Both the position numbers and the translations under genes were made by a program. Positions 11,957 through 38,851 of a stretch of 41,703 bases of DNA are shown here, piece after piece. Origin of the DNA: Planctomycetia bacterium (GTDB lineage: Bacteria > Planctomycetota > Planctomycetia > Pirellulales > UBA1268); contig JAPLNQ010000267.1 of assembly GCA_026401075.1 (NCBI GenBank), positions 1 through 41,703 of the forward strand, given 5' to 3'. The first letter of the stretch is position 1. Each line of letters opens with the position of its first letter. The notes below the pieces were generated by a model. It made no database searches and was not told the origin of the DNA. It saw nothing but the letters and a program-made list of their open reading frames with translations.

Positions 11957-13450
11957 ATGGGTGAGCCACGCGGATTCATGAAGTACGAGCGGAAGGTGAG
12001 CGGCTACGCGCCGGTTCCCGACAGGCTCAAACACTACAACGAGTTCCTCACGATTCTCCCGCAGGAGGAACTCACGAAGCAGGGCGCCCGCTGCATGGAC
12101 TGCGGCGTTCCCTTCTGCCACACCGGCTGCCCGTTGGGGAACATCATCCCCGACTTCAACGACCTCGTGTACCGCCAGCAGTGGCACGAGGCCAGCCAGC
12201 GGCTGCATGCCACGAACAACTTTCCCGAGTTCACCGGCCGCGTCTGCCCCGCGCCCTGCGAGGCCGCCTGCGTGCTCGGCATCAATGAAGATCCGGTCGC
12301 GATCAAGCAGATCGAAATGACAATCGCCGACCGCGCTTTCGATGAGGGCTGGGTCGTGCCCGAGCCGCCGGCAGTGCGCACCGGCAAGCGGGTGGCGGTG
12401 GTGGGCAGCGGACCGGCGGGGCTGGCCGCGGCACAGCAGCTCAACCGCGCCGGACATCTGGTCACGCTCTTCGAGCGGGCCGATCGGCCGGGCGGCCTGC
12501 TGATGTATGGCATCCCCGATTTCAAGCTCGAGAAGTGGCGGGTTTGGCGGCGGGTCGAGCAGATGCGCGAGGAGGGAGTCGAGTTCCGCTGTGGCGTGAA
12601 CGTCGGCGTGGACGTGAGCACGCAGTCGCTGGCGGATGAATATGATGCCATCCTGCTCACCGGCGGGGCGACGCTTGGCCGCGATCTGCCGATCCCGGGC
12701 CGTGAACTCAAGGGCGTGCACTACGCGATGGAGTTCCTGCCGCAGCAGAACAAGCGAAACGCTGGCGATGAGTTGCAGGGGCAGATCGTGGCCGAGGGCA
12801 AGGACGTGGTCGTGATCGGTGGCGGCGACACCGGCTCCGACTGCGACGGCACGAGCAATCGGCAGGGGGCGAAGAGCCTGACGCAGTTCGAACTGCTCCC
12901 GCAGCCACCGGACCTCGGCAAGTATCCGCGCCGCAGCCAGCGGCCGGAGAACACGCCGTGGCCGCTCTGGCCGGTCATCCTGCGGACGACTTCCTCGCAC
13001 GAAGAGGGCTGTCGGCGCGAGTGGGGCATCCTGTCGAAGGAGTTCCTCGGCGACGACAAGGGCCACGTGCGGGCGGTGAAGACCGTGCGGATCGAATGGT
13101 ATACCGACGAAGCATCGGGCCAGCAGAAGTTTCGCGAGGTGCCGGGCAGTCAGCAGGAGTGGCCCTGCCAGTTGGCGCTCTTGGCCATGGGCTTCATGGG
13201 GCCTGAGAAGCAGGGCCCGATCGCGGACCTTGGGCTCGAACTCGATCCACGTGGCAACGTGAAGACCGGCAGCGATTACAAGACCAGCCGGGACGGTGTG
13301 TTTGCCGCGGGCGACTTGCGGCGCGGGCAATCGCTCGTGGTGTGGGCGATTCACGAGGGCCGCGAGGCGGCCCGTTCGGTCGACCTCTGGCTGATGGGCC
13401 AGACGAACCTGCCGAGCCTGTCAGCGGGCGAGTTTGCCGTGCACGCGTGA
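11957..13450 (+). CDS. gltD: Glutamate synthase, small (beta) subunit
   Basis: This 497-aa subunit takes electrons from NAD(P)H and passes them to GltB. The N-terminal cysteines for the 4Fe-4S clusters are present ([17 protein letters not shown] and CPAPCEAAC), as are two Rossmann motifs for FAD ([17 protein letters not shown]) and NAD(P)H ([13 protein letters not shown]). The C-terminal FAD motif is [20 protein letters not shown]. The ORF track begins at a GTG at 11912, inside the inverted repeat, but the ATG at 11957 has GAGGAG 6 nt upstream and yields the standard [12 protein letters not shown] start, so the extra 15 codons are rejected. The gene follows gltB and ends just before a terminator-like hairpin. 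Confidence 0.96.
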
Positions 13451-13454
13451 GCAT

Positions 13455-13480
13455 CCCCCGGCTCACGCCGGGGGCTTTTA
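13455..13480 (+). terminator. Hairpin after gltD, copy 1 of a recurring palindrome
   Basis: A perfect 8-bp stem (cccccggc / gccggggg) with a 4-nt loop is followed by cttttat, 4 nt after the gltD stop. It has the form of a rho-independent terminator. The same stem and tail recur at 24715-24740, so it is also a dispersed palindromic repeat. Confidence 0.7.
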
Positions 13481-13507
13481 TGCGAACGGACGTTGCCGTC
13501 ATACAAG

Positions 13508-13527
13508 CCCTGAGCGTCAGCGACGGG
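13508..13527. repeat. REP-like intergenic palindrome
   Basis: The sequence ccctgagcgtcagcgacggg contains ctga-gcg-tcag and flanking ccc/ggg. It resembles the short palindromes seen between many planctomycete genes, which create spurious small ORFs. It lies between the gltD terminator and the convergent lipoprotein gene. Confidence 0.35.
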
Positions 13528-13552
13528 ATCACGGCGGGACTATCGCCCGCCC

Positions 13553-13969
13553 TCATTTCGCGGTGAGTGGAAAGTCGAAGACGCCGTTGTTGCGGACGTC
13601 GATCTGCAGCGGCTCTTTGTCATACTTCCGCGGGGTGGCGTTCGGCGTCTCGTCTTCCGGGGCAAGCCCTTCTCGACTGCCCGCGATGGCGAACCTTACG
13701 GTCTTCGGCCCTGGCGAGACCCACGTCTGGTATCGCCCGTTGATGATCACTGCACCGCCCGGAACGTCACCTGTTTTCACGATGTCGAACTGGATCCCAC
13801 CCTCTTGAACCGGCACTCCGTCGAGTGTGACCGCTCCGGAAATCCGGCAGTTGCGCGGCCCTGATTGTCCACAGCCGGTGCAGATGACAGAGGCCAGCAA
13901 CACGGCAACAGCCACGGTCCCACGCCGGGCCAATCGTCCTCCAGCATCACGCTGACAACGGGCTTTCAT
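13553..13969 (-). CDS. Small exported lipoprotein, carboxypeptidase-regulatory-like
   Basis: This 138-aa protein has a basic N-terminus, a hydrophobic segment (TVAVAVLLASVICTGC) and a lipobox ending in Cys, so it is a predicted lipoprotein. The mature part carries ISGAVTLDGVPVQEGGIQF and GRYQTWVSPGPKTVRF, a small beta-sandwich pattern common in planctomycete lipoproteins encoded next to DUF1559 genes. The ORF track's first 25 residues are dropped because the ATG at 13969 has GAGGAG 6 nt upstream. It starts 10 nt after the DUF1559 stop, so the two form an operon. The function is unknown; envelope attachment together with the DUF1559 protein is inferred. Confidence 0.75.
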   Translation of the reverse strand: MKARCQRDAGGRLARRGTVAVAVLLASVICTGCGQSGPRNCRISGAVTLDGVPVQEGGIQFDIVKTGDVPGGAVIINGRYQTWVSPGPKTVRFAIAGSREGLAPEDETPNATPRKYDKEPLQIDVRNNGVFDFPLTAK

Positions 13970-13979
13970 GGAGATCTCC

Positions 13980-14975
13980 TCAGTCGCCAAAGGGTGGTGA
14001 AACTGCCTGGCCGTCGTACCTGCACGCAAGTTTCTGCCAGACACCCATTTTCGTCGGGTCGAGCGTGGTGTTCCACGCGGTCGGCACTCCTCCCACCGCC
14101 CAACTCTCGACCGAATTGGTGACGAATCCCACCGACCCGTCCATCATGGCTACCTGGACGCCACCCAGATGGCGGCTCCGGGCGGCTGTCGACCTCCCAG
14201 TTGAGCTTACCGTTGTGCAGGGCGTCCATTGCTGCCATTCAGAGTCGGAACTGGTCTGGCAATACTGAATGCTGTCGATCGTGCCGGAGTTGGGCTCGTT
14301 CCTCGCGTTGAAACCATACCCGATCAGTTCGGCATCCCAGATGCACCCGCGGGGCTCGTAGTTGCTTCCCAATGAATTGCTCACCAGAGTCTCTGCGATC
14401 ACCATCGTCTTCGACAGCCCGTCGGTGACTTTCTTCATTTGCATCTGCGATTCTTTGTAGAAAATTCCGTCGGTTCCGCTCCCCCAGGCATAGTCGATCG
14501 CCATGGCGCCCACGTTCCCGCTGTAGTTCCCGAAAATCCCGCGAGGCTTCACGTTTCGGGAGTATGGATCCGACGGACACCACACGACAGGGACCGGCGA
14601 CGATGAACAGCTGCTCAAATAGCCTAGGGTTGACCAATTTATTTTCGAGTAGACATCGGCGTACTCGACAAACGGCAGCAGATACACGAACCAACTGGCC
14701 CTTTTGCCGGCAGTCGGCCCTGATGTCGTCTGCCCCGACGGCAGGCATCCTTTGGCGTCGTGATGGTTTTGAAGCCCCAATGCGATTTGCTTCATGTTGT
14801 TGCTGCAGCTCGACCGCCGTGCGCTTTCGCGGGCGGCCTGCACCGCGGGGAGCAACAGCCCCACCAAGGTGCCGATGATGGCAATCACGACGAGGAGTTC
14901 GACGAGTGTGAATCCGCCGCCCCCGGGCAGACGAACTGGCTGCCGTTCTCCCCCGCGCACGAATGATTGAGCCAT
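13980..14975 (-). CDS. DUF1559 protein with type II secretion prepilin-like N-terminus
   Basis: This 331-aa protein has the prepilin cleavage and methylation pattern GGGGFTLVELLVVIAIIGTLVGLLLPAVQAARESARR, with cleavage expected before the Phe. A DUF1559 domain follows (SCSNNMKQIALGLQNHHDAKGCLP), and near the C-terminus is the usual HLGGVQVAMMDGSVGFV block. Such proteins are hugely expanded in planctomycetes and are thought to be exported pseudopilin-like surface proteins. The ATG at 14975 is preceded by a G-rich stretch (ggggggatct) that serves as a ribosome-binding site; the 22 upstream residues in the ORF track are not family-like. It sits 41 nt after the LacI-type gene on the same strand and 10 nt before the lipoprotein gene. 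Confidence 0.9.
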   Translation of the reverse strand: MAQSFVRGGERQPVRLPGGGGFTLVELLVVIAIIGTLVGLLLPAVQAARESARRSSCSNNMKQIALGLQNHHDAKGCLPSGQTTSGPTAGKRASWFVYLLPFVEYADVYSKINWSTLGYLSSCSSSPVPVVWCPSDPYSRNVKPRGIFGNYSGNVGAMAIDYAWGSGTDGIFYKESQMQMKKVTDGLSKTMVIAETLVSNSLGSNYEPRGCIWDAELIGYGFNARNEPNSGTIDSIQYCQTSSDSEWQQWTPCTTVSSTGRSTAARSRHLGGVQVAMMDGSVGFVTNSVESWAVGGVPTAWNTTLDPTKMGVWQKLACRYDGQAVSPPFGD

Positions 14976-15016
14976 AGATCCCCCCAAGAAAAGTAAAAGA
15001 CGATAAATGAAATCGT

Positions 15017-16066
15017 TCAGGTCAACGATACCGACGCGCACGAATCACGGATCACAAATTCAGGCATCAACTGAATCGCTCGCGGCGTATTCGACGAGAC
15101 GCGGGCCTCGAGCCTGTCGAGGAGTAGTCTCGCTGCGTTGGCACCGATCGCGGTCGCGTCCTGCCTGACCGTTGTCAGCCGCGGTCGCAGCCCGTGGGCC
15201 TCGATCAGGTCGGCGAATCCGACGACCGACAGGTCGCTGCCGACTCGCAGCCCAGCCACCTCGGCAGCCGCGTAGACATGAATTGCCATCTTGTCCGATG
15301 CAGCGAAGATTGCCGTCGGCCGGTGTGGACCCGTCAGGATATCGCGGGCGATGGCCTCGCAGTCGCTCTTCGCGCATTCCACGCAACGATAGGCCACGTC
15401 GTTCCGGCCTCGGATGACTTCCTCGAAGCCGCGCCTGCGGTCCACGTAGGTCGAGACCCAGGGTTCTCCGGTGATTTGCGTAATGCGTCGATGGCCGAGG
15501 GACAGCAGATATTCGGCCACCATGCGGCCGCCCGCCGCGTCGTCGGTGCCGCTGAAGTCGGCATTCGTCCGGGCGAGCCGGCGATCGACTGCGACGAGCG
15601 GCAACGCCCGTTCCCAGACCTCTTTGAGGTAGTTCTGCGGCACCGATTCGTCCGACGGGAAGAAGATGAGCCCGTCGACCCGGTGTTCGATGAGGCGGTG
15701 CACGAACTTGAGTTCTTCGTTGTCCCGAAGTGCACCTGGGCCGTTGCCATGGAAATGGACGATGGACAGATAGGCTTGCTCGGAGAGCGTGTCGTGGATG
15801 CCGCGGATGACCTGTGCCTGAAACCACGATCCGATCGGCACCATGACACCGACGGTTCGGGTTCGGCCGCCCATGATCGCCGGCACGAGCCGATTGGGCC
15901 GGTACTTGAGCCGCTGAGCGACTGCCAGGACTCGCTTGCGAGTTGCCTCGGCGACGATCCCCCGGCCGCTGATTGCCCGCGACGCGGTGATCAAAGACAC
16001 GCCAGCCCCCTCAGCAACGAGCCGGATGTTGGGTTTGCGAGCGATTGATCGTTTCAACACCGGCAT
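15017..16066 (-). CDS. LacI-family transcriptional regulator
   Basis: This 349-aa regulator has an N-terminal LacI helix-turn-helix and hinge (IRLVAEGAGVSLITASRAIS, then RKRVLAVAQRLKYRPNRL) and a sugar-binding-protein-like effector domain (RTVGVMVPIGSWFQAQVIRGI, VDGLIFFP, GHRRITQITG, PTAIFAASDKMAI, VGFADLIEAHGLRPRLTTVRQD). Length is normal. Start is the ATG at 16066, preceded directly by an in-frame GTG; GAGG lies a few bases upstream. It is divergent from the DUF1592-DUF1552-ThuA-DUF6797 gene set with a 126-nt intergenic region, the common arrangement for local control. The effector ligand is unknown; a carbohydrate or derivative is the family expectation. Confidence 0.88.
   Translation of the reverse strand: MPVLKRSIARKPNIRLVAEGAGVSLITASRAISGRGIVAEATRKRVLAVAQRLKYRPNRLVPAIMGGRTRTVGVMVPIGSWFQAQVIRGIHDTLSEQAYLSIVHFHGNGPGALRDNEELKFVHRLIEHRVDGLIFFPSDESVPQNYLKEVWERALPLVAVDRRLARTNADFSGTDDAAGGRMVAEYLLSLGHRRITQITGEPWVSTYVDRRRGFEEVIRGRNDVAYRCVECAKSDCEAIARDILTGPHRPTAIFAASDKMAIHVYAAAEVAGLRVGSDLSVVGFADLIEAHGLRPRLTTVRQDATAIGANAARLLLDRLEARVSSNTPRAIQLMPEFVIRDSCASVSLT
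15031..15046 (-). promoter_or_regulatory. 16-bp site matching the tandem repeats upstream of the LytS kinase
   Basis: The sequence ccgacgcgcacgaatc lies 56 bp upstream of the DUF1559 start codon, inside the last codons of the LacI-type gene. It matches 15 of 16 bases of the unit repeated at 32271-32308. It could be a shared regulator-binding site; the coding constraint of the LacI tail is the alternative explanation. Confidence 0.3.
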
Positions 16067-28425: not shown

Positions 28426-29718
28426 ATGCAGGACGCGATGGACGCTGATCTGAAGCACGTCATCCTCTGCGCGATCGGCAGCTCGGGAGACGTGCATCCG
28501 TTCGTCGGACTGGGGCGGGCGTTGCGGCGGCGCGGCTACCGAGTGACTGTCATCACCGCCGGATACTTTCGTAGCCTCGTCGAACAGGCGGGCCTCGAGT
28601 TCGGCGATCCGCTGCCAGAGAGCGACTTCCGGGAGATGATCCGCAACCCACGGATCTGGCATCCGCTGCAAGGCACGCGGACGATCATCGATCTGGCGAT
28701 CCGGCCGCTGCTCGAGCCTGTGTATCGCAGCATCCTCGACCACCAGACACCCGGACAGACGCTCATCTGCGGGTCGAGCCTCGCCTTTGGGGCCCGCGTT
28801 GCCCAGGAAGCGCAGGGCATCCCGCTTGTGAGCGTCCACCTCTCGCCGATGCTCTTTCGCAGCGACTTCGAGGGGCCAAGGCTGCCGGTGCTGCAGGTGC
28901 ACCGCGGGCCGGCCTGGTTTCGCCGACTGCAGTGGCGGCTCATCGATAGTGTCTCCGATCGCGCGATCTGCCCGTGGCTCAATGAGTTTCGAGGCCGCCT
29001 TGGTCTGCCGCCGGTCCGCGGTGTGTTTCGCGATTGGATGCATTCGCCGCTGGGGCTGGTCGCCATGTTTCCCGAGTGGTTCGCGCCGCAGCAGCGAGAC
29101 TGGCCTCCTCAGACGCGGCTCGCCGGCTTTCCGCTCTACAGCGAGGAGGGGGTGGTCGAGCCTGCACGTGATGTCGAGCAATTCATCGACGCAGGCCCGC
29201 CGCCGCTGGTGTTCACGCCCGGCTCGGCGAATGTGTTTGGTCGCGACTTCTTCGTGGCCGCCGCCGAGGCCTGCCAGCGGCTCAGGCACCGAGGCCTCTT
29301 GCTCACGCGGTTTCCCGAACAGGTGCCGACGGCGCTGCCCGACGGCGTGCGGCATGTCGACTTCGTGCCGTTCCGTTGGCTGCTCACGCGATCGGCCCTG
29401 CTCGTGCACCACGGCGGCATCGGCTCCATGTCGCAGGCGCTCGCGGCGGGCGTGCCGCAGGTGATCATGCCGATGGGCTTCGATCAGTGCGACAACGCAG
29501 CCCGCGTCGAACGGCTCGGCGTGGGAAAGAGCCTGCCGCCCAAACGCTTTCGCGGACCGGCCCTCGCCGAGATGATTCGCGGGCTGCTCGACGATTCGGC
29601 CGTGACGACCCGCTGCCGCGATGTCGCCGCCCGACTCGCGGACGCCGATGGCCTCGAACTCGCCTGCGATGAGGTCGAGGCCGCGTGGACTGCGCAGCGG
29701 AGGGCCAGCCACCCGTGA
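28426..29718 (+). CDS. GT1/MGT-family glycosyltransferase
   Basis: This 430-aa enzyme has the two-domain GT-B layout of UDP-glucosyl/glucuronosyltransferase-like enzymes. The N-terminal acceptor domain starts KHVILCAIGSSGDVHPFVGLGRALRRRGYRVTVIT. The C-terminal donor-binding signature LVHHGGIGSMSQALAAGVPQVIMPMGFDQCDNAARVERLG contains the usual HHGG and D/Q pair for nucleotide-sugar binding. Relatives glycosylate sterols, lipids, carotenoids or secondary metabolites. The stop overlaps the next glycosyltransferase-like gene by GTGA, so the two enzymes probably act in one pathway. The carotenoid genes are about 8 kb downstream in another transcription unit, so a link to carotenoid glycosylation is speculative. 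Confidence 0.85.
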   Translation: MQDAMDADLKHVILCAIGSSGDVHPFVGLGRALRRRGYRVTVITAGYFRSLVEQAGLEFGDPLPESDFREMIRNPRIWHPLQGTRTIIDLAIRPLLEPVYRSILDHQTPGQTLICGSSLAFGARVAQEAQGIPLVSVHLSPMLFRSDFEGPRLPVLQVHRGPAWFRRLQWRLIDSVSDRAICPWLNEFRGRLGLPPVRGVFRDWMHSPLGLVAMFPEWFAPQQRDWPPQTRLAGFPLYSEEGVVEPARDVEQFIDAGPPPLVFTPGSANVFGRDFFVAAAEACQRLRHRGLLLTRFPEQVPTALPDGVRHVDFVPFRWLLTRSALLVHHGGIGSMSQALAAGVPQVIMPMGFDQCDNAARVERLGVGKSLPPKRFRGPALAEMIRGLLDDSAVTTRCRDVAARLADADGLELACDEVEAAWTAQRRASHP

Positions 29719-30482
29719 CCAACGCTCATCTGTTGTCGTTTGCTAACCGCCGCTACCGCGGGTCGCTGTCGCGGATCCGCCGCGAGGCGAAGGTGATGAA
29801 TCGATTCGCGTCGATTCACACTGTCGACGAGCGATGGCTTGGGACCGATTACTGGCAGCAGCATGCCGACACCGTGCGGCGGCACCGCCGTGGCTATGGC
29901 CTGTGGACATGGAAGCCACACGCCATCCGCCGCCACCTCGAGCAACTGCCCGCCGGCGACATGCTCGTCTATTGCGATGCCGGTTGCTCGCTCAACGCCG
30001 AGGGACGATCGCGACTGGAGGAGTATGTCGCGCTGGCCGCCGGCCATCCGACGGGCGTGCTCGCCTTCAAGCTTGACGGCCTCGTGGGGCAGTGGACGAA
30101 GCGGGCCACACTCGCCGCTTTCCATGCCGACGATCCTGCGATGCGTGCGCGGGAGATGGTGGCGGCCACGGCACTCGTGTTGCGGGCCGGGCCCGAGACA
30201 TTCGACCTCGTCCGGGAGTGGGAGTCGCGGATGCGGAATGTCTCGCTCATCGACGACTCACCTTCGCCGCAGGGGGAGCACCCGGAGTTTCGCAACCACC
30301 GCCACGACCAAAGCATCTTCACGCTCCTGGCTCACGAGCGGGCGTTACAGCGGATCCCCGATGAAACCTGGTTTGGTGGCGAGTGGGATGGCTTCCGCCA
30401 GTTTCCGATCCACGCCCGCCGCTGGCGTCACTCGCTGCCCTGGAGCCAGGGCTGGATGCGGCGCGGGCTGTGGCGCGTGTAA
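29715..30482 (+). CDS. Glycosyltransferase-like protein
   Basis: This 255-aa protein starts at a GTG that overlaps the stop of the preceding glycosyltransferase gene by 4 nt. The motifs RRHRRGYGLWTWKPHAIRRHLEQLPAGDMLVYCDAGCSLN and RNHRHDQSIFTLLAHE are typical of an uncharacterised GT-A-like family found in polysaccharide and LPS clusters, where the DAG core would be the metal-binding DxD equivalent. No signal peptide or membrane span is seen, so it probably works in the cytoplasm with the GT1 partner. The substrate is unknown. The ten codons before the GTG in the ORF track lie inside the upstream gene. Confidence 0.65.
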   Translation: MTNAHLLSFANRRYRGSLSRIRREAKVMNRFASIHTVDERWLGTDYWQQHADTVRRHRRGYGLWTWKPHAIRRHLEQLPAGDMLVYCDAGCSLNAEGRSRLEEYVALAAGHPTGVLAFKLDGLVGQWTKRATLAAFHADDPAMRAREMVAATALVLRAGPETFDLVREWESRMRNVSLIDDSPSPQGEHPEFRNHRHDQSIFTLLAHERALQRIPDETWFGGEWDGFRQFPIHARRWRHSLPWSQGWMRRGLWRV

Positions 30483-30594
30483 GCAAAAAGCAAAAAGGTG
30501 CCTCTGCCCCGGGTGTCTTCAAGCAGGCAGATGCTTCCCGGCTTGAGATTGCATAGGCTGCCGTCGCTTGCGCGAACAGTGGCTTGTCCGGCGC

Positions 30595-30610
30595 TCCCGT
30601 CCCCGATTTC
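30595..30610. repeat. 16-bp direct repeat, copy 1, flanking a toxin-antitoxin pair
   Basis: tcccgtccccgatttc occurs here, 2 nt before the end of the toxin gene, and again exactly at 31336-31351 beyond the antitoxin. The cccgtccccgattt core resembles REP-type elements common in bacteria. Confidence 0.6.
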
Positions 30611-30611
30611 T

Positions 30612-30881
30612 CTATCGCAGCGACTTCACGAGCGTGTCGTAGTCGGCGTGCGATCCGATCCAAAACCACGTGATCGTGTCATCGTCGACTAAACCGAGAG
30701 CCCTCCAGCCGATCCCGACGCGGACTGACCACACGCCGGTCGAACCTATCTGTTTGAATGCGAGGCTCGGATGCCGGGGATCATCGAGCCAGAGTCGATA
30801 ATTCTTGCGAGCGGTTTGCCTGACGGCATCGGGGAGTCGTTTCAGGCAGGCAAGAAATTCATCTTCCAGCTTCGATTTCAC
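30612..30881 (-). CDS. RelE/ParE-superfamily toxin
   Basis: This 89-aa protein matches the plasmid-maintenance/RelE-like toxin pattern: KSKLEDEFLACLKRLPDAVRQTARKNYRLW, then SLAFKQIGSTGVWSVRVGIGWRALGLVDDDTITWFWIGSHADYDTLV. The conserved WSVRVG strand and terminal WIGSHADYD are typical of a family that usually follows a small antitoxin gene. The start is a GTG at 30881 that overlaps the antitoxin stop by GTGA; the much longer ORF upstream in the track is a shadow of the antitoxin. It probably acts as an mRNA endonuclease, by family analogy only. Confidence 0.75.
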   Translation of the reverse strand: MKSKLEDEFLACLKRLPDAVRQTARKNYRLWLDDPRHPSLAFKQIGSTGVWSVRVGIGWRALGLVDDDTITWFWIGSHADYDTLVKSLR

Positions 30882-31096
30882 AGGTCTTCGATCCGCATGT
30901 CGCGGGTTTGGCCAGAGCGAGTCTTGGCCCGAACCTTTTCGGCGAGCTGCTCGATCTCGGGCTGCGAGGCAGCGAACGCCTCGTCCCAGCGGGTTTCGTC
31001 CGCGAGTTCCTCGAGAATCAAGGCTGCGATGGTGTCCTGCTCGGCGGGACTGCACTTCCGCAGCTGGTCGATCGCTTGTTCAAGAAGCGTTGTCAT
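30878..31096 (-). CDS. Antitoxin of a RelE/ParE-type module
   Basis: This 72-aa protein (MTTLLEQAIDQLRKCSPAEQ...) is a helical, acidic antitoxin of the type that carries the motif AEQDTIAALILEELADETRWDEAFAASQPEIEQLAEKV, widespread in cyanobacteria and planctomycetes next to RelE-like toxins. The ATG at 31096 is the sensible start; the longer ORF in the track enters a REP-like intergenic region. Its stop overlaps the toxin start by 4 nt. Such antitoxins bind and silence the toxin and may repress the operon, although no DNA-binding fold is evident here. Confidence 0.75.
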   Translation of the reverse strand: MTTLLEQAIDQLRKCSPAEQDTIAALILEELADETRWDEAFAASQPEIEQLAEKVRAKTRSGQTRDMRIEDL

Positions 31097-31234
31097 CGGT
31101 CGCGTCTTCGCCGGGGTTCGCATGGGTGAGATCACGCTCACTGATTTTAGCAGCAGGAGAAAAAGGACGGCAGCCATTGTCCCGTCTGTTTCGCAAAAGT
31201 CGTGCCTGTCCGCGGTTTTTCGCGGATTCCTCTC

Positions 31235-31289
31235 GCTTGCGCTTCGGGCTTGCATGAAATCCCTGCTCATCCAAGCCCGCAGCGCAAGC
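31235..31289. repeat. REP-like inverted repeat
   Basis: The 18-bp arms (gcttgcgcttcgggcttg and its complement at 31272-31289) differ at one position and enclose a 19-nt loop. No T-tract follows, so it does not look like a terminator. It resembles dispersed planctomycete intergenic palindromes. Confidence 0.7.
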
Positions 31290-31335
31290 ACGGGAATGCG
31301 GGCCGCCTACGAAACCCGTACCAAACACGTGCCGA

Positions 31336-31351
31336 TCCCGTCCCCGATTTC
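31336..31351. repeat. 16-bp direct repeat, copy 2
   Basis: tcccgtccccgatttc is an exact copy of 30595-30610; the pair brackets the toxin-antitoxin genes and part of the adjoining repeat region. Confidence 0.6.
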
Positions 31352-31356
31352 CCCCC

Positions 31357-31397
31357 AAAATGACGCCGGGCTGGGCATCTTGCGATGCCCAGCCCGG
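31357..31397 (-). terminator. Rho-independent terminator of the PEP-CTERM gene
   Basis: A perfect 14-bp stem (ccgggctgggcatc / gatgcccagcccgg) with a 4-nt loop is followed on the minus strand by gtcatttt. It lies 31 nt beyond the stop of the minus-strand PEP-CTERM gene and is the strongest hairpin in the window. Confidence 0.85.
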
Positions 31398-31428
31398 TTG
31401 TGGATCGTCATTCGACCGACGTGCTCGT

Positions 31429-32073
31429 TCAGGCAGTCAGAGCGGTGGCCTTGCCGCGACGGCGACGCCGCTGCTCGATCATCGCGATCGCACCGCCGAC
31501 GAGCGAGAGGGCGCTGCCACCCGTGGCGGGGTCGATCTCGGGGACACTTGAGGGTGCGGGAGGAGCAGCGTTGGTGCCGATCGTCCACGCCGAGCCTTCC
31601 GTTGGGGAATACGTCGATGAACGAAATTGCGGTCCTCCGCCAGAGGTTGCGGCGAGGTATTCCGAGGCGCCGTAGAGATTGTTTCTCCAGTTGAGCGATC
31701 CCACGTAGGGGCTGGAATACAGTGAAAAAGAGTTTTGATCTGGCAGATTGAGACTCGTCAGGGTCGCGTCCAAATGGGCGGTCCCGATGCCGGAGTTCAG
31801 GCTTGCCAACGACCCATTTCCCGAGCCGCCGAAACTCGTCGTGCCACTCGTTGCGGTCCAAGAGAAGGAAAGAATCTTGTCCTGTGTGATCGTGCCGAGT
31901 TGCGAAACAGTCATCGACCCACTGATGATCCAGCCGCTTTGGCCAGCCGTATAGTTGTTCCAATTGTAGGTGACTGCCTCTGCGAGAACGGCGTGGGCCG
32001 AACCCAACGTGACCGCTATCGCCAACGCAGAAAATTGGGCCGCCGATGCCCACGATCGTCGCACTGCATTCAT
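31429..32073 (-). CDS. PEP-CTERM sorting-domain exported protein
   Basis: This 214-aa protein has a signal peptide (SALAIAVTLGSAHAVLA) and a Ser/Thr/Gly-rich central part with no recognised enzyme motif. The C-terminus is SVPEIDPATGGSALSLVGGAIAMIEQRRRRRG: the VPEIDPA motif, a hydrophobic stretch and an Arg cluster, the planctomycete form of the PEP-CTERM sorting tail. Such proteins are exported and handled by an exosortase, often ending on the surface or in extracellular polymer. The gene is divergent from the LytS-type kinase gene with a 277-nt intergenic region that carries tandem repeats, and it ends in a strong terminator, so it is probably transcribed alone. Confidence 0.88.
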   Translation of the reverse strand: MNAVRRSWASAAQFSALAIAVTLGSAHAVLAEAVTYNWNNYTAGQSGWIISGSMTVSQLGTITQDKILSFSWTATSGTTSFGGSGNGSLASLNSGIGTAHLDATLTSLNLPDQNSFSLYSSPYVGSLNWRNNLYGASEYLAATSGGGPQFRSSTYSPTEGSAWTIGTNAAPPAPSSVPEIDPATGGSALSLVGGAIAMIEQRRRRRGKATALTA

Positions 32074-32250
32074 TGGATTGTCCGTTGTGAAGGATTTAGT
32101 GATTGGGACTGCAAAAGACTATGCGGCACGTTGCGTTTCGCGACGTTCGTGCCACACCGAACCGAGAGGCGCGGGCGTCAAGTGCACGTGAAAGTAGTCC
32201 TTCTCGCCCTCTTCACAAGCGGTCGAAGACCACAAAAGGACGAAACGGGA

Positions 32251-32308
32251 AAAACGCGCACTAATCAACACCGGCGCGCACGAATCAGCACGCCGGCGCG
32301 CACGAATC
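32251..32308. repeat. Tandem direct repeats upstream of the LytS kinase and PEP-CTERM genes
   Basis: Two exact 16-bp copies of ccggcgcgcacgaatc (32271 and 32293) are spaced 22 bp apart, and a weaker copy (aaaacgcgcactaatc, 32251) lies 20 bp before the first. Direct repeats with a spacing of about two helical turns are the usual arrangement for LytTR-type DNA-binding domains, and a LytTR gene lies just downstream. A near-identical site is upstream of the DUF1559 gene (15031). Binding is inferred. Confidence 0.6.
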
Positions 32309-32350
32309 GACACGGGACGATAGTGCGGCTCGCGCTTTGCGGTCATACTG

Positions 32351-33616
32351 ATGGTGCGGACTCGGGTGATCCCCACCCCACGCTCAACAGTGATCACCCC
32401 TCGGCGGCAGGTTCCATGGATTCGACTTCAAACGACCGCGTGCAGGCTGCGAACGTGCCGAGGATCGCGGCGCTTCCTTCGGCGGTCGCTGCCGAGGTGG
32501 CGGAGGCGGATCTTCTGGGCATTCCAGGCCGTGTTCTGGCTGGCAATCGGCGCGGCCGTGCTGGGGATGAGCATGGCTTTAAAGCCTAATGAGCCGATGC
32601 CGTGGCTACCGGTCATGCTGCGGGTGGTCACCGGCTTCGTGGTGTCGAGCCTTGTCTATCAGCTGTTCGAGATGCCACGGCTCAGCGAACTACCGCGGCA
32701 GGTGCGGTGGCCGCTGATGGTGGGCGTGGCGGCGGCAGCGCTCGCAGCATCGATTCTGCTGCTCATCGGCGGCGGCGTGGGCGGGCCCACCAACTGGACC
32801 CGTGAGACGACGCTCGGGCTGCTCGTGCCGCGGCTGATCGCGGCGGGCCTCTGGTGCTTGATCGTCTTCGGGCTGGAGCTGATCGAGGATCTCTACCGGG
32901 CAAAGATTCTGCTCGCGGAGAACGAGGCGACAGCGATGGATCTGGAACTCCGGATGCTCAAGGCGGAGGCGGCAGCCCGAACGTTCGAACTGCGGCAGCT
33001 GCAGGCGCAGATGAATCCCCACTTCCTCTTCAACGCGCTCAACGCCGTGGCGGCCAGCAAGAATGATCCTGAGGCCGTCGAGAGCGTCACCCGCGACCTC
33101 GCCGACTACCTGCGGTTCACGCTCGGAGAGGCCCGCACGTTTGAGCCGCTGTCGCGGGAACTTCAGGCGCTGGAGAAATACCTCGCCGTCCAACAGGCCC
33201 GGTTCGGCGATAACCTCGTCTGCCGTTTCTCCTGCGACAGGGCGGCCCATGCCGTGATCGTGCCGCCGATGCTGATTCAGCCGATCCTCGAAAACGCATT
33301 GCACTATGGTGCCCAGACGAGCAGCATGCCGCTGCGGGTGAGCGTGACGGCCAAGGTGGCCGATGGCTGGCTCGAGGTGGTGGTCGCCAACACCGGCCGA
33401 TGGGTGCCGCCAGACAAGACGCGTTCGCCCTCCACGGGCATTCGTACGCTTCGCAAGCGGCTGGCCCTGCTGGTCGACGAAGCGGCGACCGTCGACACGC
33501 TGATCGACCCGGATCTCGACGGCGGCTGGGTGCGGGTCGTCATCCGGATGCCCGCGACGCTCACCCAGCCCGCGCCGGCCGCCCACGAACCGACCCCAGC
33601 TGCGGAGCTCGTCTGA
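32351..33616 (+). CDS. LytS/YehU-type sensor histidine kinase
   Basis: This 421-aa membrane kinase has about four hydrophobic spans between residues 55 and 180 (FWAFQAVFWLAIGAAVLGMSM, PVMLRVVTGFVVSSLVYQLF, WPLMVGVAAAALAASILLLIGG, LVPRLIAAGLWCLIVFGLEL). A short coiled segment follows, then the His_kinase domain: QAQMNPHFLFNALNAVAASK with the phosphoacceptor His, and the ATP-binding region PMLIQPILENALHYGAQ and TGIRTLRKRLALL. It should phosphorylate the response regulator encoded 1 nt after its stop. The N-terminal 55 residues are Arg-rich and poorly biased; a second frame starting at 32416 looks more gene-like there, so the true N-terminus or a sequencing frameshift is uncertain. No extracellular sensor domain is evident. 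Confidence 0.85.
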   Translation: MVRTRVIPTPRSTVITPRRQVPWIRLQTTACRLRTCRGSRRFLRRSLPRWRRRIFWAFQAVFWLAIGAAVLGMSMALKPNEPMPWLPVMLRVVTGFVVSSLVYQLFEMPRLSELPRQVRWPLMVGVAAAALAASILLLIGGGVGGPTNWTRETTLGLLVPRLIAAGLWCLIVFGLELIEDLYRAKILLAENEATAMDLELRMLKAEAAARTFELRQLQAQMNPHFLFNALNAVAASKNDPEAVESVTRDLADYLRFTLGEARTFEPLSRELQALEKYLAVQQARFGDNLVCRFSCDRAAHAVIVPPMLIQPILENALHYGAQTSSMPLRVSVTAKVADGWLEVVVANTGRWVPPDKTRSPSTGIRTLRKRLALLVDEAATVDTLIDPDLDGGWVRVVIRMPATLTQPAPAAHEPTPAAELV

Positions 33617-33617
33617 C

Positions 33618-34049
33618 ATGCCTTCACCCTCATCAGCCGGCACTCCCCCGGACAGCACGACGATCACGGCCCTGCTCGTGGATGACGAACCTCGTGCCAA
33701 TGAGCGGATGCAGCAACTGCTCGCCGCCCATCCGGAGATCGTCGTCTCCGGCATCGCCGGGAACATCGCTGAGGCCCGGGCCTTTCTCGAAACGCATTCG
33801 CCGGATGTTCTGTTTCTCGACGTGGAAATGCCCGGGGGCAGCGGTCTCGGCCTGCTCAACGACGTGCCCGCCAGCACGCAGGTGGTGTTTGTCACGGCCC
33901 GCGAGAAGTATGCGGTCGAGGCGTTCGCCGTTGCGGCCCTCGACTATCTCGTGAAGCCGGTCGACCCCGAGAGGCTCGCCGACACGGTCGCCCGCATTCA
34001 TCAAAAGCAGACTGCCAGTACGGGGGCCCAGTCGACGGGGGATCGATAG
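33618..34049 (+). CDS. Response regulator receiver domain, ended by an in-frame TAG
   Basis: This 143-aa product is a complete CheY-like receiver: the acidic pocket LLVDDEP, the phosphoacceptor Asp in VLFLDVEMPGGSG, the Thr of VVFVTAREKYAVEAF and the Lys of LDYLVKPVD are all present. It follows the kinase gene by 1 nt, so it is the cognate partner. LytTR response regulators normally continue through a linker into the DNA-binding domain. Here a TAG codon at 34047-34049 ends translation in the linker, but the same frame stays open beyond it (PGTDDLDADEASAV) and runs straight into a LytTR domain. It is either one gene with a nonsense mutation or two separately translated parts. Confidence 0.85.
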   Translation: MPSPSSAGTPPDSTTITALLVDDEPRANERMQQLLAAHPEIVVSGIAGNIAEARAFLETHSPDVLFLDVEMPGGSGLGLLNDVPASTQVVFVTAREKYAVEAFAVAALDYLVKPVDPERLADTVARIHQKQTASTGAQSTGDR

Positions 34050-34088
34050 CCGGGCACCGACGACCTCGACGCCGACGAGGCCTCCGCA

Positions 34089-34454
34089 GTGACGGTCCTG
34101 GGGCTCGGCGACGTGGTGAGCGTGCCACTGGCCGGGAAGACCACGTCGTTGGCGGTGACGGTTGGCGACATCTGCTGGATCGAGTCGCTTCGCAACTACA
34201 CGCGGGTCGCGCTCAAGCCCCCGGCAGGCTTGCTGTTCTTCCGTCGCCGGCTGAGCTACTGGGACAAGGTTGTGCCGACGAGCGCGTTTGCGCGGGTGGG
34301 CCGGTCGTACCTCGTTCAAGTCGCAGCGATCGAGCAGATCGAGTGGGCGTCACGGACCGAGACGGCGGTCACCTTTGGCGAGGGTGTGGAGCCGCTCGCC
34401 CTCGGCCGGCTCCCGGCCATGCGGCTACGGGAGATTCTCGGCGGCCATGCCTGA
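34089..34454 (+). CDS. LytTR DNA-binding domain, separated from its receiver by a stop codon
   Basis: This 121-aa LytTR domain is in the same reading frame as the preceding receiver, 13 sense codons after the TAG. Family features are visible: the ICWIESLRNYTRVAL strand region, LLFFRRRLSYWDKVVPTSAFARVGRSYLVQVAAIEQI and the C-terminal strands. A GTG at 34089 has GAGG 8 nt upstream, so independent initiation is possible and would give a stand-alone DNA-binding protein not directly coupled to phosphorylation. LytTR domains bind direct repeats spaced about two turns apart, like those upstream of the kinase gene. The sequence does not decide between a broken regulator and a split functional one. 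Confidence 0.8.
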   Translation: MTVLGLGDVVSVPLAGKTTSLAVTVGDICWIESLRNYTRVALKPPAGLLFFRRRLSYWDKVVPTSAFARVGRSYLVQVAAIEQIEWASRTETAVTFGEGVEPLALGRLPAMRLREILGGHA

Positions 34455-34545
34455 CCACCGAGACAAGCAGGCGGTGTATCGTAGCGGTAAGATGCATCGA
34501 GAACAGCGGCCCACGCAGTAGATCCAGTGAAGGCTTTGGTAACCC

Positions 34546-35568
34546 ATGTTTCTATCAGTCCGCCATCTTCTCGCCACATTGTTCGATCGGCTGGCGGAAC
34601 ATTCGAAACAAGAGTGGTTCGAAAAAGGTGTCGTGATGGCCGCCACAGGCGGCTTTCTCATGCATCTCCTGCTCATCGCAGCCGTCCGGAATCTGCCCGA
34701 CATGCCGCAGACGATCCTTGAAGGCGTCGACCGCAGCCCGCTTCATGCGGTCTACACGCCGTTTAGTATCATTCTCTTCTACGAGGTCATTCTCCTCGTT
34801 TTCGCGATCGCGAATTCACACACCGGAGAAATCGCCAAGCAGTATCAGATCATGTCGCTCATCATCGTACGCCGTGTCTTTAAAGACATCGGGGGCTTTG
34901 AAGACATCGACAACTGGCTGGCAGAATCTGAAGCGGCCAGCCTGGTGCTGCTCGACATGGTGGGTGCTGTGGCGATGTTCGTGATCGTGACCGTATTCAC
35001 CCTGATTCGCCAGAGGACGCCCAAGATCTCGATTGAGAGAAATCTCGACGGCTTCATCGAGCTGAAAAAAGCCGTTGCCGTGTTGCTGCTCTTCGTCCTG
35101 GTAGGACTCGCCGCACTCAATTTCGCGAGTTGGTTGCGAATCGTGCCGGCGACGGTCATCGGTCAGCCGCATCCGCCACAGAATCTTGACCTGTTCTTCT
35201 TCCCGCTCTTCTTCGAGTTCATGATTTTTTCAGACGTGTTTCTTCTGATCGTGTCACTGGCCTACTACGATCGGTATGAGTATGTCTTTCGGAACGCGGG
35301 GTTCGTCATCTCGACGGTGCTTCTCCGTGTATCCTTGTCGACACCAAAGCCTTACGATCTTGGCGTTGCGCTCGTCGCCATGGTCTATGGTGTCGTGGTT
35401 CTCGGCGTGTTTAGCTGGTTCAGTTCGATCGCCAGGCTGGAACATGGGAAAGTGGCAGGCAATACCCTGTCCGCCTTGAAAAAGAAGGACTCGCACGGTG
35501 AAATCCCGGAACGTGCCCCAATCCCAGAACGTCCCTCAATTCCAGAGCGTCCCTTAGGGGAGTCATGA
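34546..35568 (+). CDS. Polytopic membrane protein of unknown family
   Basis: This 340-aa protein has about seven hydrophobic segments (for example ATGGFLMHLLLIAAV, FSIILFYEVILLVFAIA, LVLLDMVGAVAMFVIVTVFTLI, AVAVLLLFVLVGLAALNFASWL, LFFFPLFFEFMIFSDVFLLIVSLAYY, LGVALVAMVYGVVVLGVFSWF) and a soluble acidic patch between spans two and three (KDIGGFEDIDNWLAESE). The C-terminus ends in three IPERxxIPERxx units. Base composition is more AT-rich and codon choice differs from the surrounding high-GC genes, a sign of acquisition from another lineage. I recognise no family. The CysJ-like diaphorase gene follows after 6 nt, so the two are probably co-expressed and may be functionally paired, for instance as a membrane-linked redox unit; this pairing is inference. 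Confidence 0.75.
   Translation: MFLSVRHLLATLFDRLAEHSKQEWFEKGVVMAATGGFLMHLLLIAAVRNLPDMPQTILEGVDRSPLHAVYTPFSIILFYEVILLVFAIANSHTGEIAKQYQIMSLIIVRRVFKDIGGFEDIDNWLAESEAASLVLLDMVGAVAMFVIVTVFTLIRQRTPKISIERNLDGFIELKKAVAVLLLFVLVGLAALNFASWLRIVPATVIGQPHPPQNLDLFFFPLFFEFMIFSDVFLLIVSLAYYDRYEYVFRNAGFVISTVLLRVSLSTPKPYDLGVALVAMVYGVVVLGVFSWFSSIARLEHGKVAGNTLSALKKKDSHGEIPERAPIPERPSIPERPLGES
35503..35556 (+). repeat. Three 18-bp tandem repeats encoding IPER units
   Basis: Three diverged copies of an 18-bp unit such as atcccagaacgtccctca encode IPERAP, IPERPS and IPERPL at the end of the membrane-protein gene. This proline-rich cytoplasmic or external tail is the last feature before the stop. Confidence 0.85.
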
Positions 35569-35574
35569 TGCACC

Positions 35575-36699
35575 ATGGCCGAATTCCCTACCCCCGCGAC
35601 GGCTTTCGGTCGGCAAAACCCGTTTGCCTCGCGCCTTCGTGAAAATCGCCGACTCAACCGACAAGGTTCGAGCAAAGACACCCGCCACATCGTCGTCGAA
35701 TTAGGGTCCTCGGGTCCGACGTACACCTGTGGCGATGCCCTCGGCGTCTTCCCGCGGAACCCCGAACCTTTGGTCCGTGAATTCATCGAAACGTTGGGCC
35801 TTGAAAACGATGCTGCCCTGCACAAAACCATAGCAACCTCTGCCGTCCTCAACCGTGTCAGGAAAAAGTTTGTTCGAGCTGTGGCGGAAAAAGCTGTGGG
35901 CCCGGCAAAGCAGAGATTCCAGGAAATCGTTGCCGACGACAAAAAGTTCGACCACTATATTTTCGACCGGGATGTGATCGATGTTCTTCGTGATGCTCCG
36001 GGAGTTCATTTTGAGCCCGCGGACATTCCCGGTCTCCTGAACACGATCGCACCGCGACTCTACTCGATCGCATCGTCACCCGATCACCGTCCCGGAGAGG
36101 CTCACATGTGTGTGGTCCTCGTCCAGTACACCTCCCACGGCCGCCAAAAACAGGGACTCGCCTCGGGTTACCTTGCTGATCTGGCCGACCAGTCGTCGGT
36201 TCCCGTTTATGTCCAACCCACCCGCCATTTTCATCTTCCGCCAGCGGACCGCGACATGATCATGGTCGGCCCGGGGACCGGTGTCGCCCCTTTTCGGGCC
36301 TTTCTCCAGCACCGTGCCATCCATGGCCATGCGGGTCGCAATTGGCTCTTTTTCGGAGATCAGCACGAGAAAACCGACTTCCTTTACGGCGATGAATTCC
36401 TGGCTGCCCAGAAATCCCGACTCCTTCACAAACTCTCCACTGCGTTTTCCCGAGATCAGGCCGAAAAAATCTATGTACAGCACCGCATGGAAGAAGAGGG
36501 TGCTGAACTCTGGCGCTGGCTGGACGAGGGTGCGTTCTTCTACGTCTGCGGCGACGCAAAGCGAATGGCCAAAGACGTTCACGCATCCTTGGTGACGATC
36601 GTTGCCAAGCATGGCGGTAAAACGCTTGATCAGGCCGACGAGTGGGTCTCGGAAACCCTCATGAAAAATGAAAAACGCTATTTGAGAGACGTCTACTGA
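35575..36699 (+). CDS. CysJ-like FAD/NADPH diaphorase (sulfite reductase alpha-type) without flavodoxin domain
   Basis: This 374-aa protein matches the C-terminal ferredoxin-NADP-reductase-like part of CysJ. It has the FAD-binding RLYSIASSP and GLASGYLADL, NADPH-binding GPGTGVAPFRAFLQHR, the FFGDQHEKTDFLY block, and YVCGDAKRMAKDVH near the end with a terminal aromatic residue (RYLRDVY). The N-terminus opens with FGRQNPFASRLRENRRLNRQGSSKDTRHIVVEL, as in the stand-alone sulfite reductase alpha proteins of planctomycetes and verrucomicrobia. There is no FMN domain, so electrons must pass directly from FAD to a partner. No sulfite reductase haemoprotein gene is nearby. It follows the membrane-protein gene by 6 nt, shares its atypical composition, and precedes the rhodopsin operon. 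Confidence 0.85.
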   Translation: MAEFPTPATAFGRQNPFASRLRENRRLNRQGSSKDTRHIVVELGSSGPTYTCGDALGVFPRNPEPLVREFIETLGLENDAALHKTIATSAVLNRVRKKFVRAVAEKAVGPAKQRFQEIVADDKKFDHYIFDRDVIDVLRDAPGVHFEPADIPGLLNTIAPRLYSIASSPDHRPGEAHMCVVLVQYTSHGRQKQGLASGYLADLADQSSVPVYVQPTRHFHLPPADRDMIMVGPGTGVAPFRAFLQHRAIHGHAGRNWLFFGDQHEKTDFLYGDEFLAAQKSRLLHKLSTAFSRDQAEKIYVQHRMEEEGAELWRWLDEGAFFYVCGDAKRMAKDVHASLVTIVAKHGGKTLDQADEWVSETLMKNEKRYLRDVY

Positions 36700-36998: not shown

Positions 36999-37856
36999 AT
37001 GATTGAATGCTTCTGTTTGCTCGGGGCGGCGATGCCCGATCTGTCAGTGTTCCAATACAATGCGGTTGACAACATCTTTTCGATGACGGTCGCGACGATG
37101 GGGGCGGCCGCCCTGTTTCTGTACATGTCCCGGTCGCACGTCGATGCGGAATACCGGCCGGCTCTGCTCGTGTCGGGCATCGTGGTTTCGATCGCCTGCT
37201 ACCACTACTTCATGATCCGCCACAGCTGGCACGACGCCTACTCGCTGGTGGGCGCTGCTGGGTACAAGGGTACCGGCGCTGCCTTCAACGACTTCTATCG
37301 GTACGCCGACTGGATCCTGACGGTGCCGCTGCTGATGGTCGAACTCGTGTCCGTCCTCCGACTGCATTCGGCCAAGGCGACGAGCCTGCTGACGCGGCTT
37401 GTGATCGCGGCGGCCTTGATGATCGCGCTCGGCTATCCGGGCGAGGTGATCGCCGACCCGTCGCGGTGGTCTGAGCGAGTTATCTGGGGTGGGCTCTCGT
37501 CGATTCCATTCTTCTACATCCTCTACGTGCTCTGGACGGAACTGACGAATTCGCTCGACAGTCAGCCGCCCGCGGCCCGCAAGCTTCTTGAGGTCGCTCG
37601 GCTGGTGATTCTGCTCACCTGGGCGGTTTACCCGATCGCTTACGCGCTCGGTGGCACGCCCGATGCATTGGCCGCGAAGGCTGGGACCGCGAATGCCGCC
37701 GATGGCGTCGTTGGTGCCAATGGTGTCGTTGGCCTGCAGATTGGTTACGCGATTGCCGACATGACCGCCAAGGCGGGCTTCGGCGTGCTGATCTATCTCA
37801 TCGCCAAGGCCAAGAGCACGAAGACTGCGGCAGCTGAGGCTTACGGCGCCGCCTGA
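36999..37856 (+). CDS. Proton-pumping rhodopsin, xanthorhodopsin-like
   Basis: This 285-aa seven-helix retinal protein carries the outward H+ pump motif in helix C, RYADWILTVPLLMVEL. Asp104 (proton acceptor), Thr108 and Glu115 (donor) match Asp97, Thr101 and Glu108 of proteorhodopsin. Leu112 at the tuning position indicates green absorption. His69 in ACYHYFM matches the acceptor-linked His, and Lys258 in ADMTAKAG is the retinal Schiff-base lysine. In helix E, Gly164 (VIWGGLSSIP) aligns with the xanthorhodopsin glycine that opens a fenestration for a carotenoid antenna. The loop before helix G is long and Gly/Ala-rich. The ATG at 36999 has AGGTGA upstream; Met12 is an alternative. It is the first gene of an operon with blh, crtY, crtE and crtI. 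Confidence 0.95.
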   Translation: MIECFCLLGAAMPDLSVFQYNAVDNIFSMTVATMGAAALFLYMSRSHVDAEYRPALLVSGIVVSIACYHYFMIRHSWHDAYSLVGAAGYKGTGAAFNDFYRYADWILTVPLLMVELVSVLRLHSAKATSLLTRLVIAAALMIALGYPGEVIADPSRWSERVIWGGLSSIPFFYILYVLWTELTNSLDSQPPAARKLLEVARLVILLTWAVYPIAYALGGTPDALAAKAGTANAADGVVGANGVVGLQIGYAIADMTAKAGFGVLIYLIAKAKSTKTAAAEAYGAA

Positions 37857-37891
37857 GCGGCGGGAACCTCTGCGAAAGAACAGCGTTTGAC

Positions 37892-38851
37892 ATGCACGCG
37901 GCCTCGGTAATCTTGCTCTCTTGGGCTATTATCGGGGCCGCGTTCTTTTTTTCTCAGGCCACGGCTGGAATCACCGCCGGCGTTTTGGCGGCTCTCGTCG
38001 CGCTGATCGGCCTGCCGCACGGCGCAGCCGATCATCGCTTTGCCCGGCCGCGGCTCGAACCGGTTCTGGGCATGACGTGGCTGCCGGTGTTTCTGGTCGG
38101 GTATCTGGCGGTTGCGGTGTTGGTCGTGTGCGGCTGGTTCGTGGCGCCGACCGCCACAGTTGTGGCATTTTTTCTGGCTTCAGCCTGGCACTTCGGCCAG
38201 GAGGAGCCACGGCTCCCGGTCGGTCCGCGGGGCATGCGGAAGGTGTTCCGATTCGCACGCGGAGGGCTCGTGATCTGGACGCCGCTGGTGTTTCACGCTG
38301 GGAACGTCGCCACGATCCTCGGCCTGGCCGCGCCAGGGGGCTCGGGCCCAGCCATCGAGCAAGCCATCAGTCTGCTGACGGCTTGCTCGTGGATCATGCT
38401 GCCTGTTGCGGCGGCCGCCTGGGTTCTTCAAGGCCTGGCGGCCAGCAAAAGCACCGGGCGGAGGCGGCGGGTCTTGCTTGCCGACAACGCGTTGGTCGCG
38501 TCACTGGTGGTGCTCTTTGCCGTCACGAGTCCGCTGGTGAGCTTCCCAGTCTATTTCTGTGGCTGGCATTCGGCGCGGGGCCTTGAGCGACTCCGTCGGG
38601 AACTTGGAGAAAGCTGGCCAGAACTCGTCCGAAGCCTCGCGCCCTTGACCGTGGGGGCGATCGCTCTGGTCGGGCTGGCCGCGTGGCTCGTGCTCGGCGG
38701 GGCGGGCTGGAATGGCACGCTCATTCGGGCGACCTTTGTCGGCCTGAGCGCCGTGGCCGTGCCGCATCTGCTCCTGCACGGAGTCGCCCCGCTGTGCGAG
38801 GCGTCAGCCAGGCGGCGGACGCAGTCTCTGCAGTTGGAGGGCCCCGCATGA
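37892..38851 (+). CDS. blh: Brp/Blh-family beta-carotene 15,15'-dioxygenase
   Basis: This 319-aa integral membrane enzyme cleaves beta-carotene into two molecules of all-trans-retinal, the chromophore of the rhodopsin encoded just upstream. The family's iron-binding histidines are in GLPHGAADH, SAWHFGQEE, CGWHSARG and PHLLLHG, each next to a hydrophobic span, and the length is normal. It starts 35 nt after the rhodopsin stop and its own stop overlaps crtY by ATGA. No strong ribosome-binding site is visible before the ATG at 37892. With crtY, crtE and crtI it completes the conversion of isoprenoid precursors to retinal except for phytoene synthase. Confidence 0.95.
   Translation: MHAASVILLSWAIIGAAFFFSQATAGITAGVLAALVALIGLPHGAADHRFARPRLEPVLGMTWLPVFLVGYLAVAVLVVCGWFVAPTATVVAFFLASAWHFGQEEPRLPVGPRGMRKVFRFARGGLVIWTPLVFHAGNVATILGLAAPGGSGPAIEQAISLLTACSWIMLPVAAAAWVLQGLAASKSTGRRRRVLLADNALVASLVVLFAVTSPLVSFPVYFCGWHSARGLERLRRELGESWPELVRSLAPLTVGAIALVGLAAWLVLGGAGWNGTLIRATFVGLSAVAVPHLLLHGVAPLCEASARRRTQSLQLEGPA

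Follow-up and report, generated by a model that had tools for sequence, protein, structure and literature searches.

A kinase and a regulator gene, each with a lesion

The window analysed here is a stretch of 41,703 nucleotides, the whole of contig C68 of a 4.16-Mb planctomycete metagenome-assembled genome (MAG; G000, 301 contigs, 92.8% complete). The source is a freshwater planctomycete assembled from environmental DNA, and its nearest relatives include freshwater MAGs such as isolate RE-18aug17-209 (Planctomycetaceae). On the forward strand, a gene for a sensor histidine kinase of the LytS/His_kinase type (PF06580; 32351-33616, 421 aa) is followed by a response regulator region (33618-34454). 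The latter is one reading frame with a single internal stop, a TAG at 34047-34049, reached after 143 codons; 13 sense codons separate this stop from a GTG at 34089, and the frame terminates at a TGA at 34454. A receiver and a LytTR domain sharing one frame, with the TAG and the GTG so placed, had been described in a first-pass annotation of this DNA, and translation confirmed it.

Two fragments are thereby delimited, both on the forward strand: a receiver-domain fragment (33618-34049), which ends at the premature TAG, and a LytTR DNA-binding-domain fragment (34089-34454), open from the GTG, where re-initiation is possible. Both domains are essentially complete, because the Pfam profiles were matched over nearly their full length: Response_reg (PF00072) in the first half, with an E-value of 1.4e-20 over profile positions 2-110 of 111, and LytTR (PF04397) in the second half, with an E-value of 1.3e-9 over positions 6-97 of 98. 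The receiver keeps the phospho-acceptor Asp, and the motif LFLDVEMPG is conserved, as in response regulators of the Response_reg-LytTR type (AlgR/AgrA/LytR family). What sets the window apart from its intact homologues is that the two domains are no longer on one polypeptide, the TAG at 34047 lying between them. Their co-linearity is not fortuitous, because the homologue of this frame in relatives is an uninterrupted protein of 275-317 aa. The predicted structure of the orthologue from genome G002 had a mean pLDDT of 47 and was usable for the receiver alone, so that it is no test of the domain boundary.

The kinase matches PF06580 with an E-value of 1.1e-22, and its His_kinase domain has both an H-box and an N-box (motifs MNPHFLFNAL and PILENALHYG). 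The gene had been considered intact; this holds for the catalytic body, which is open and conserved, but not for the 5′ end. In 10 of the 10 relatives examined, the kinase ATG is found exactly 35 codons upstream of a conserved IFW, and the N-terminal sequence is approximately M-x-(A/T)GVAPPHIAALRDSLPRWR-x-RIFW. This ATG is the sole start codon in the stretch before IFW in G056, and no start codon lies upstream of it in G023. Its counterpart in the window, at 32416, is out of frame, in the window only, which leaves the gene with no in-frame start at the family-conserved N-terminus. Read from 32416 on the forward strand (32416-32589), the sequence runs off frame after about 20 codons, meets a stop at 32589, and has its GVAPPHIAALRDSLPRWR-RIFW motif disrupted. 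Compared to G002, 15 bp have been lost from the 5′ end and a second CTTC has been gained, as part of a 4-bp tandem duplication (CTTCCTTC, CTTC-CTTC, forward strand, 32472-32479) where G002 has a single CTTC. The duplication, which shifts the frame, and the 15-bp loss together put the conserved ATG out of frame, and the long kinase frame would not be open but for an upstream ATG that is in phase by chance. From this fortuitous start at 32351, translation may still give a kinase, with a changed N-terminus. Even so, the gene is not intact as the word is usually meant, and the case recalls that an open upstream frame is no proof of an intact gene. The intact kinase had been the main argument for a system still in use, and that claim, deprived of it, becomes doubtful.

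The stop and the operon site in related genomes

In G002 and G001, congeners of the window genome, the orthologous regulator is one open frame of 315-317 codons (80% and 79% identical, respectively). The gene is likewise unbroken in three comparison genomes of the same family (G011, G009 and G023). A search of 72 family genomes with the G002 protein as query (E ≤ 1e-30) gave 83 homologous places, three of which were flagged with stops. Recurrent splitting within the family was considered and rejected, since the flagged TGAs of G067 and G020 are gene ends and do not lie between the domains. A stop between the domains was found in 1 of the 83 homologues, that of the window. Comparison with relatives at 34047, which the first-pass annotation had proposed, gave a sense codon, mostly Glu: Glu in G002, G001, G009, G072 and G071, Asp in G011 and Gln in G023. 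The TAG falls in the linker, which is the least conserved region of the gene, with indels and pairwise dN/dS values of 0.4-0.9. Within the window genome, no close second copy of the operon was found; the only other copy of the regulator is a 55-62% paralogue on C41, itself without interruption. No naturally split LytTR response regulator was reported in the papers searched, and the phage collection searched gave no match.

The operon also lies at a new site. Four loci were compared, namely positions 29690-34480 of the window, contig C206 of the same genome, and contigs C68 and C4 of G002. The congeners carry the operon on C68 in G002 and on C202 in G001. The flanks of this site are found on C206 in the window genome, at 9726-10968 and 13206-15141, and the operon is absent there. 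Conversely, the window's own flanks (up to 29688 and from 34480), which are syntenic with relatives on both sides, are separated in G002 and G001 by 0.9 kb with a fasciclin-like gene and neither kinase nor regulator. A dispersed repeat with a 22-bp tandem unit (CGCGCACGAATC..., forward strand, 32233-32320) marks the operon's 5′ edge, and this edge repeat persists at the vacated C206 site (88 bp, 91% identical). The sole close copy of the operon in this genome has thus moved, and dispersed repeats probably served as the sites of recombination. The downstream neighbours of the operon vary among genera, and kinase and regulator remain paired. Relocation may have changed expression of the operon and relaxed the constraint on it, a link that we infer.

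Several other features of the surroundings were recorded. Dispersed palindromic repeats of about 90 bp (CCTTGCTTGCGC...), of which these genomes have dozens of copies, are present at the edges. A RelE/ParE-like toxin-antitoxin pair appears to occupy the vacated site on C206; the segment inserted upstream of the operon in the window (30612-31291, reverse strand) also has two small adjacent open reading frames resembling a RelE/ParE-like toxin and antitoxin. Also on the reverse strand, the product of 31429-32073 looks secreted, and its C-terminus (VPEIDPATGGSALSLVGGAIAMIEQRRRRR) is similar to a PEP-CTERM sorting signal. The gene following the LytTR fragment (34546-35568) encodes a hydrophobic protein (340 aa) that is conserved and matches no Pfam family; in G001 and G002 its counterpart adjoins the fasciclin-like gene and not a LytTR gene. 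Beside it are a gene for an FNR-like flavin reductase (35575-36699) and a rhodopsin gene, in a block syntenic in G001 and G002. Immediately downstream of the rhodopsin gene (PF01036) is a gene for a beta-carotene dioxygenase of the Blh type (PF15461); the two span 36999-38851 and form a retinal-based light-harvesting pair. Judged by eye, RYADWILTVPLLMVE is consistent with a DTE-type proton pump, and the Leu at its tuning position with green light; freshwater Planctomycetacia have been reported to carry green-light rhodopsins (PMC6461901).

Probable recent decay and the alternatives to it

Lesions were surveyed by comparing the window with G001, G002 and G003 over 29 gene segments (36.3 kb), of which the operon represents 2.0 kb, or 5.6%. 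Two lesions were found within 1.6 kb of this one operon, and none that would disable a gene in the 27 remaining conserved segments (about 34 kb of the 36.3 kb). Seen in two lesions of one assembly, this confinement favours a real loss of constraint, specific to the operon, over errors scattered at random in the consensus. Values of dN/dS were about 0.12 for the kinase relative to G002, 0.19 for the receiver, and 0.52 for LytTR against 0.37 for the sister pair, and no long-term relaxation was seen in any of the three. Substitution counts on the window branch are too few to separate constraint from recent relaxation: an excess of nonsynonymous changes in the receiver had a p value of 0.009 when unpolarised and of 0.10 when polarised with G011. 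Selection was rejected as an arbiter, the branch-specific changes being too few. The overall constraint fits recent decay, and it fits an allele that is polymorphic or erroneous just as well.

We consider it likely, with a probability of about 0.7, that, in this lineage, an ordinary operon of a LytS-type kinase and a LytTR regulator is in recent decay. The regulator is cut by a nonsense substitution in its flexible linker, with a receiver fragment before the stop and a remnant of LytTR after it; independently, the 4-bp tandem duplication, together with the 15-bp loss, has cost the kinase its conserved start. These lesions, their absence from relatives and the new position of the operon are observed; beyond them, ribosomes would stop at the TAG, phosphorylation-dependent gene control would be lost through this termination, and any LytTR half produced by re-initiation would be a by-product. 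Decay would be recent, because both domains and the body of the kinase still look conserved. Recent gene decay had already been named, beside sequencing error, as an alternative in the first-pass annotation, and the restriction of the stop to the window, its position in an unconserved linker, the second lesion in the kinase and the relocation of the operon all support decay. The dN/dS values, in which no long-term relaxation shows, and the kinase frame still open from 32351 count against it.

It is also conceivable, though unlikely, that the lesions come from an error in the MAG consensus or from the allele of a minority strain, and that the regulator of the population is intact. The TAG and the kinase frameshift were both read from a single metagenome-assembled consensus, in a MAG of 301 contigs; a substitution and a short tandem duplication are of the kinds that a consensus or a strain mixture can carry; and the lack of any long-term relaxation of selection would be as expected. 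Random errors, however, rarely cluster as these two lesions do, in a single operon next to some 34 kb of undamaged conserved coding sequence, and the synteny of the window flanks on both sides likewise argues against an artefact.

A functional split, in which termination is followed by re-initiation at GTG 34089 and two proteins are made, with DNA binding uncoupled from phosphorylation, seems to us improbable. Both domains are complete, stand-alone LytTR regulators exist elsewhere (PMC6193735), and the signals proposed for re-initiation are indeed present: a GAGG (forward strand, 34077-34080), possibly Shine-Dalgarno-like, ends 8 nt before the GTG, which is in frame and 39 nt after the stop. 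The site, however, is not special. The GAGG sits inside GACGAGGCC, an ordinary linker coding stretch in several relatives that have no stop; GTG 34089 lacks conservation, and the congeners share with the window other in-frame GTGs farther downstream, so that any stop here would look restartable. Re-initiation at GTG 34089 thus appears possible from the sequence, and nothing points to its having been selected. The rarity of the stop (a single homologue in 83), the broken start of the kinase and the lack of excess constraint on the LytTR half along the window branch also speak against a functional split, and the claim that phosphorylation and DNA binding have been separated onto two proteins finds little in its favour. 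More specifically, the LytTR half, re-initiated at GTG 34089 after the relocation and the linker stop, could be a kinase-independent regulator and an early step towards a stand-alone LytTR protein, which we regard as very improbable. If this half were expressed and used, the locus would capture one way in which a response regulator can give rise to a stand-alone LytTR regulator.

Finally, that some regulator is made at full length, by read-through or with a suppressor tRNA, is hardly credible: the stop is single in an otherwise open frame and the downstream half is still conserved, but no tRNA with a CUA anticodon was found among the tRNA-match loci (ARAGORN, which made no call for a truncated match on C86), no PylS was found over the cut-off (one weak match lay below it, as in most control genomes), absences that are not absolute because the genome is 93% complete, and TAG terminates four normal genes of the window. 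Read-through of the regulator stop at a low level may still occur. Recoding of TAG, by pyrrolysine or by a suppressor, was rejected on these same grounds. Elsewhere in the assembly, the short contig C269 (4875 bases) carries 15 tRNA genes, with HNH-endonuclease-like open reading frames between them; this tRNA array is perhaps of phage origin and perhaps mis-binned.

Comparison with known systems

The operon resembles LytS/LytTR-type systems (AlgR/AgrA/LytR family) in its gene order, in the presence of both domains, and in the pairing of a PF06580 kinase with a Response_reg-LytTR regulator. The phospho-acceptor Asp (FLDVEMPG) and the Thr and Lys motifs of the receiver are found in the window, and the orthologous operon is intact in the congeners. 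It differs from such systems in that its regulator is cut by a TAG in the linker, its kinase start is frameshifted, and it lies at a new site. Stand-alone LytTR regulators are known from the LytTR Regulatory Systems HdrRM and BrsRM (PMC6193735), and the fragment starting at GTG 34089, if re-initiated, would likewise be a LytTR domain without a receiver. In those systems, however, the regulator is paired with a transmembrane inhibitor, whereas the fragment of the window is the remnant of a response regulator beside its own kinase. With pseudogenised two-component systems, the locus shares a lineage-specific stop and frameshift in an operon that is otherwise intact in relatives, and we see no difference of principle. 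It looks less like a split regulator of a new kind than like an ordinary gene in recent breakdown; as such, it would add an example from an uncultured planctomycete to the two-component systems that have lately been broken, and would matter little.
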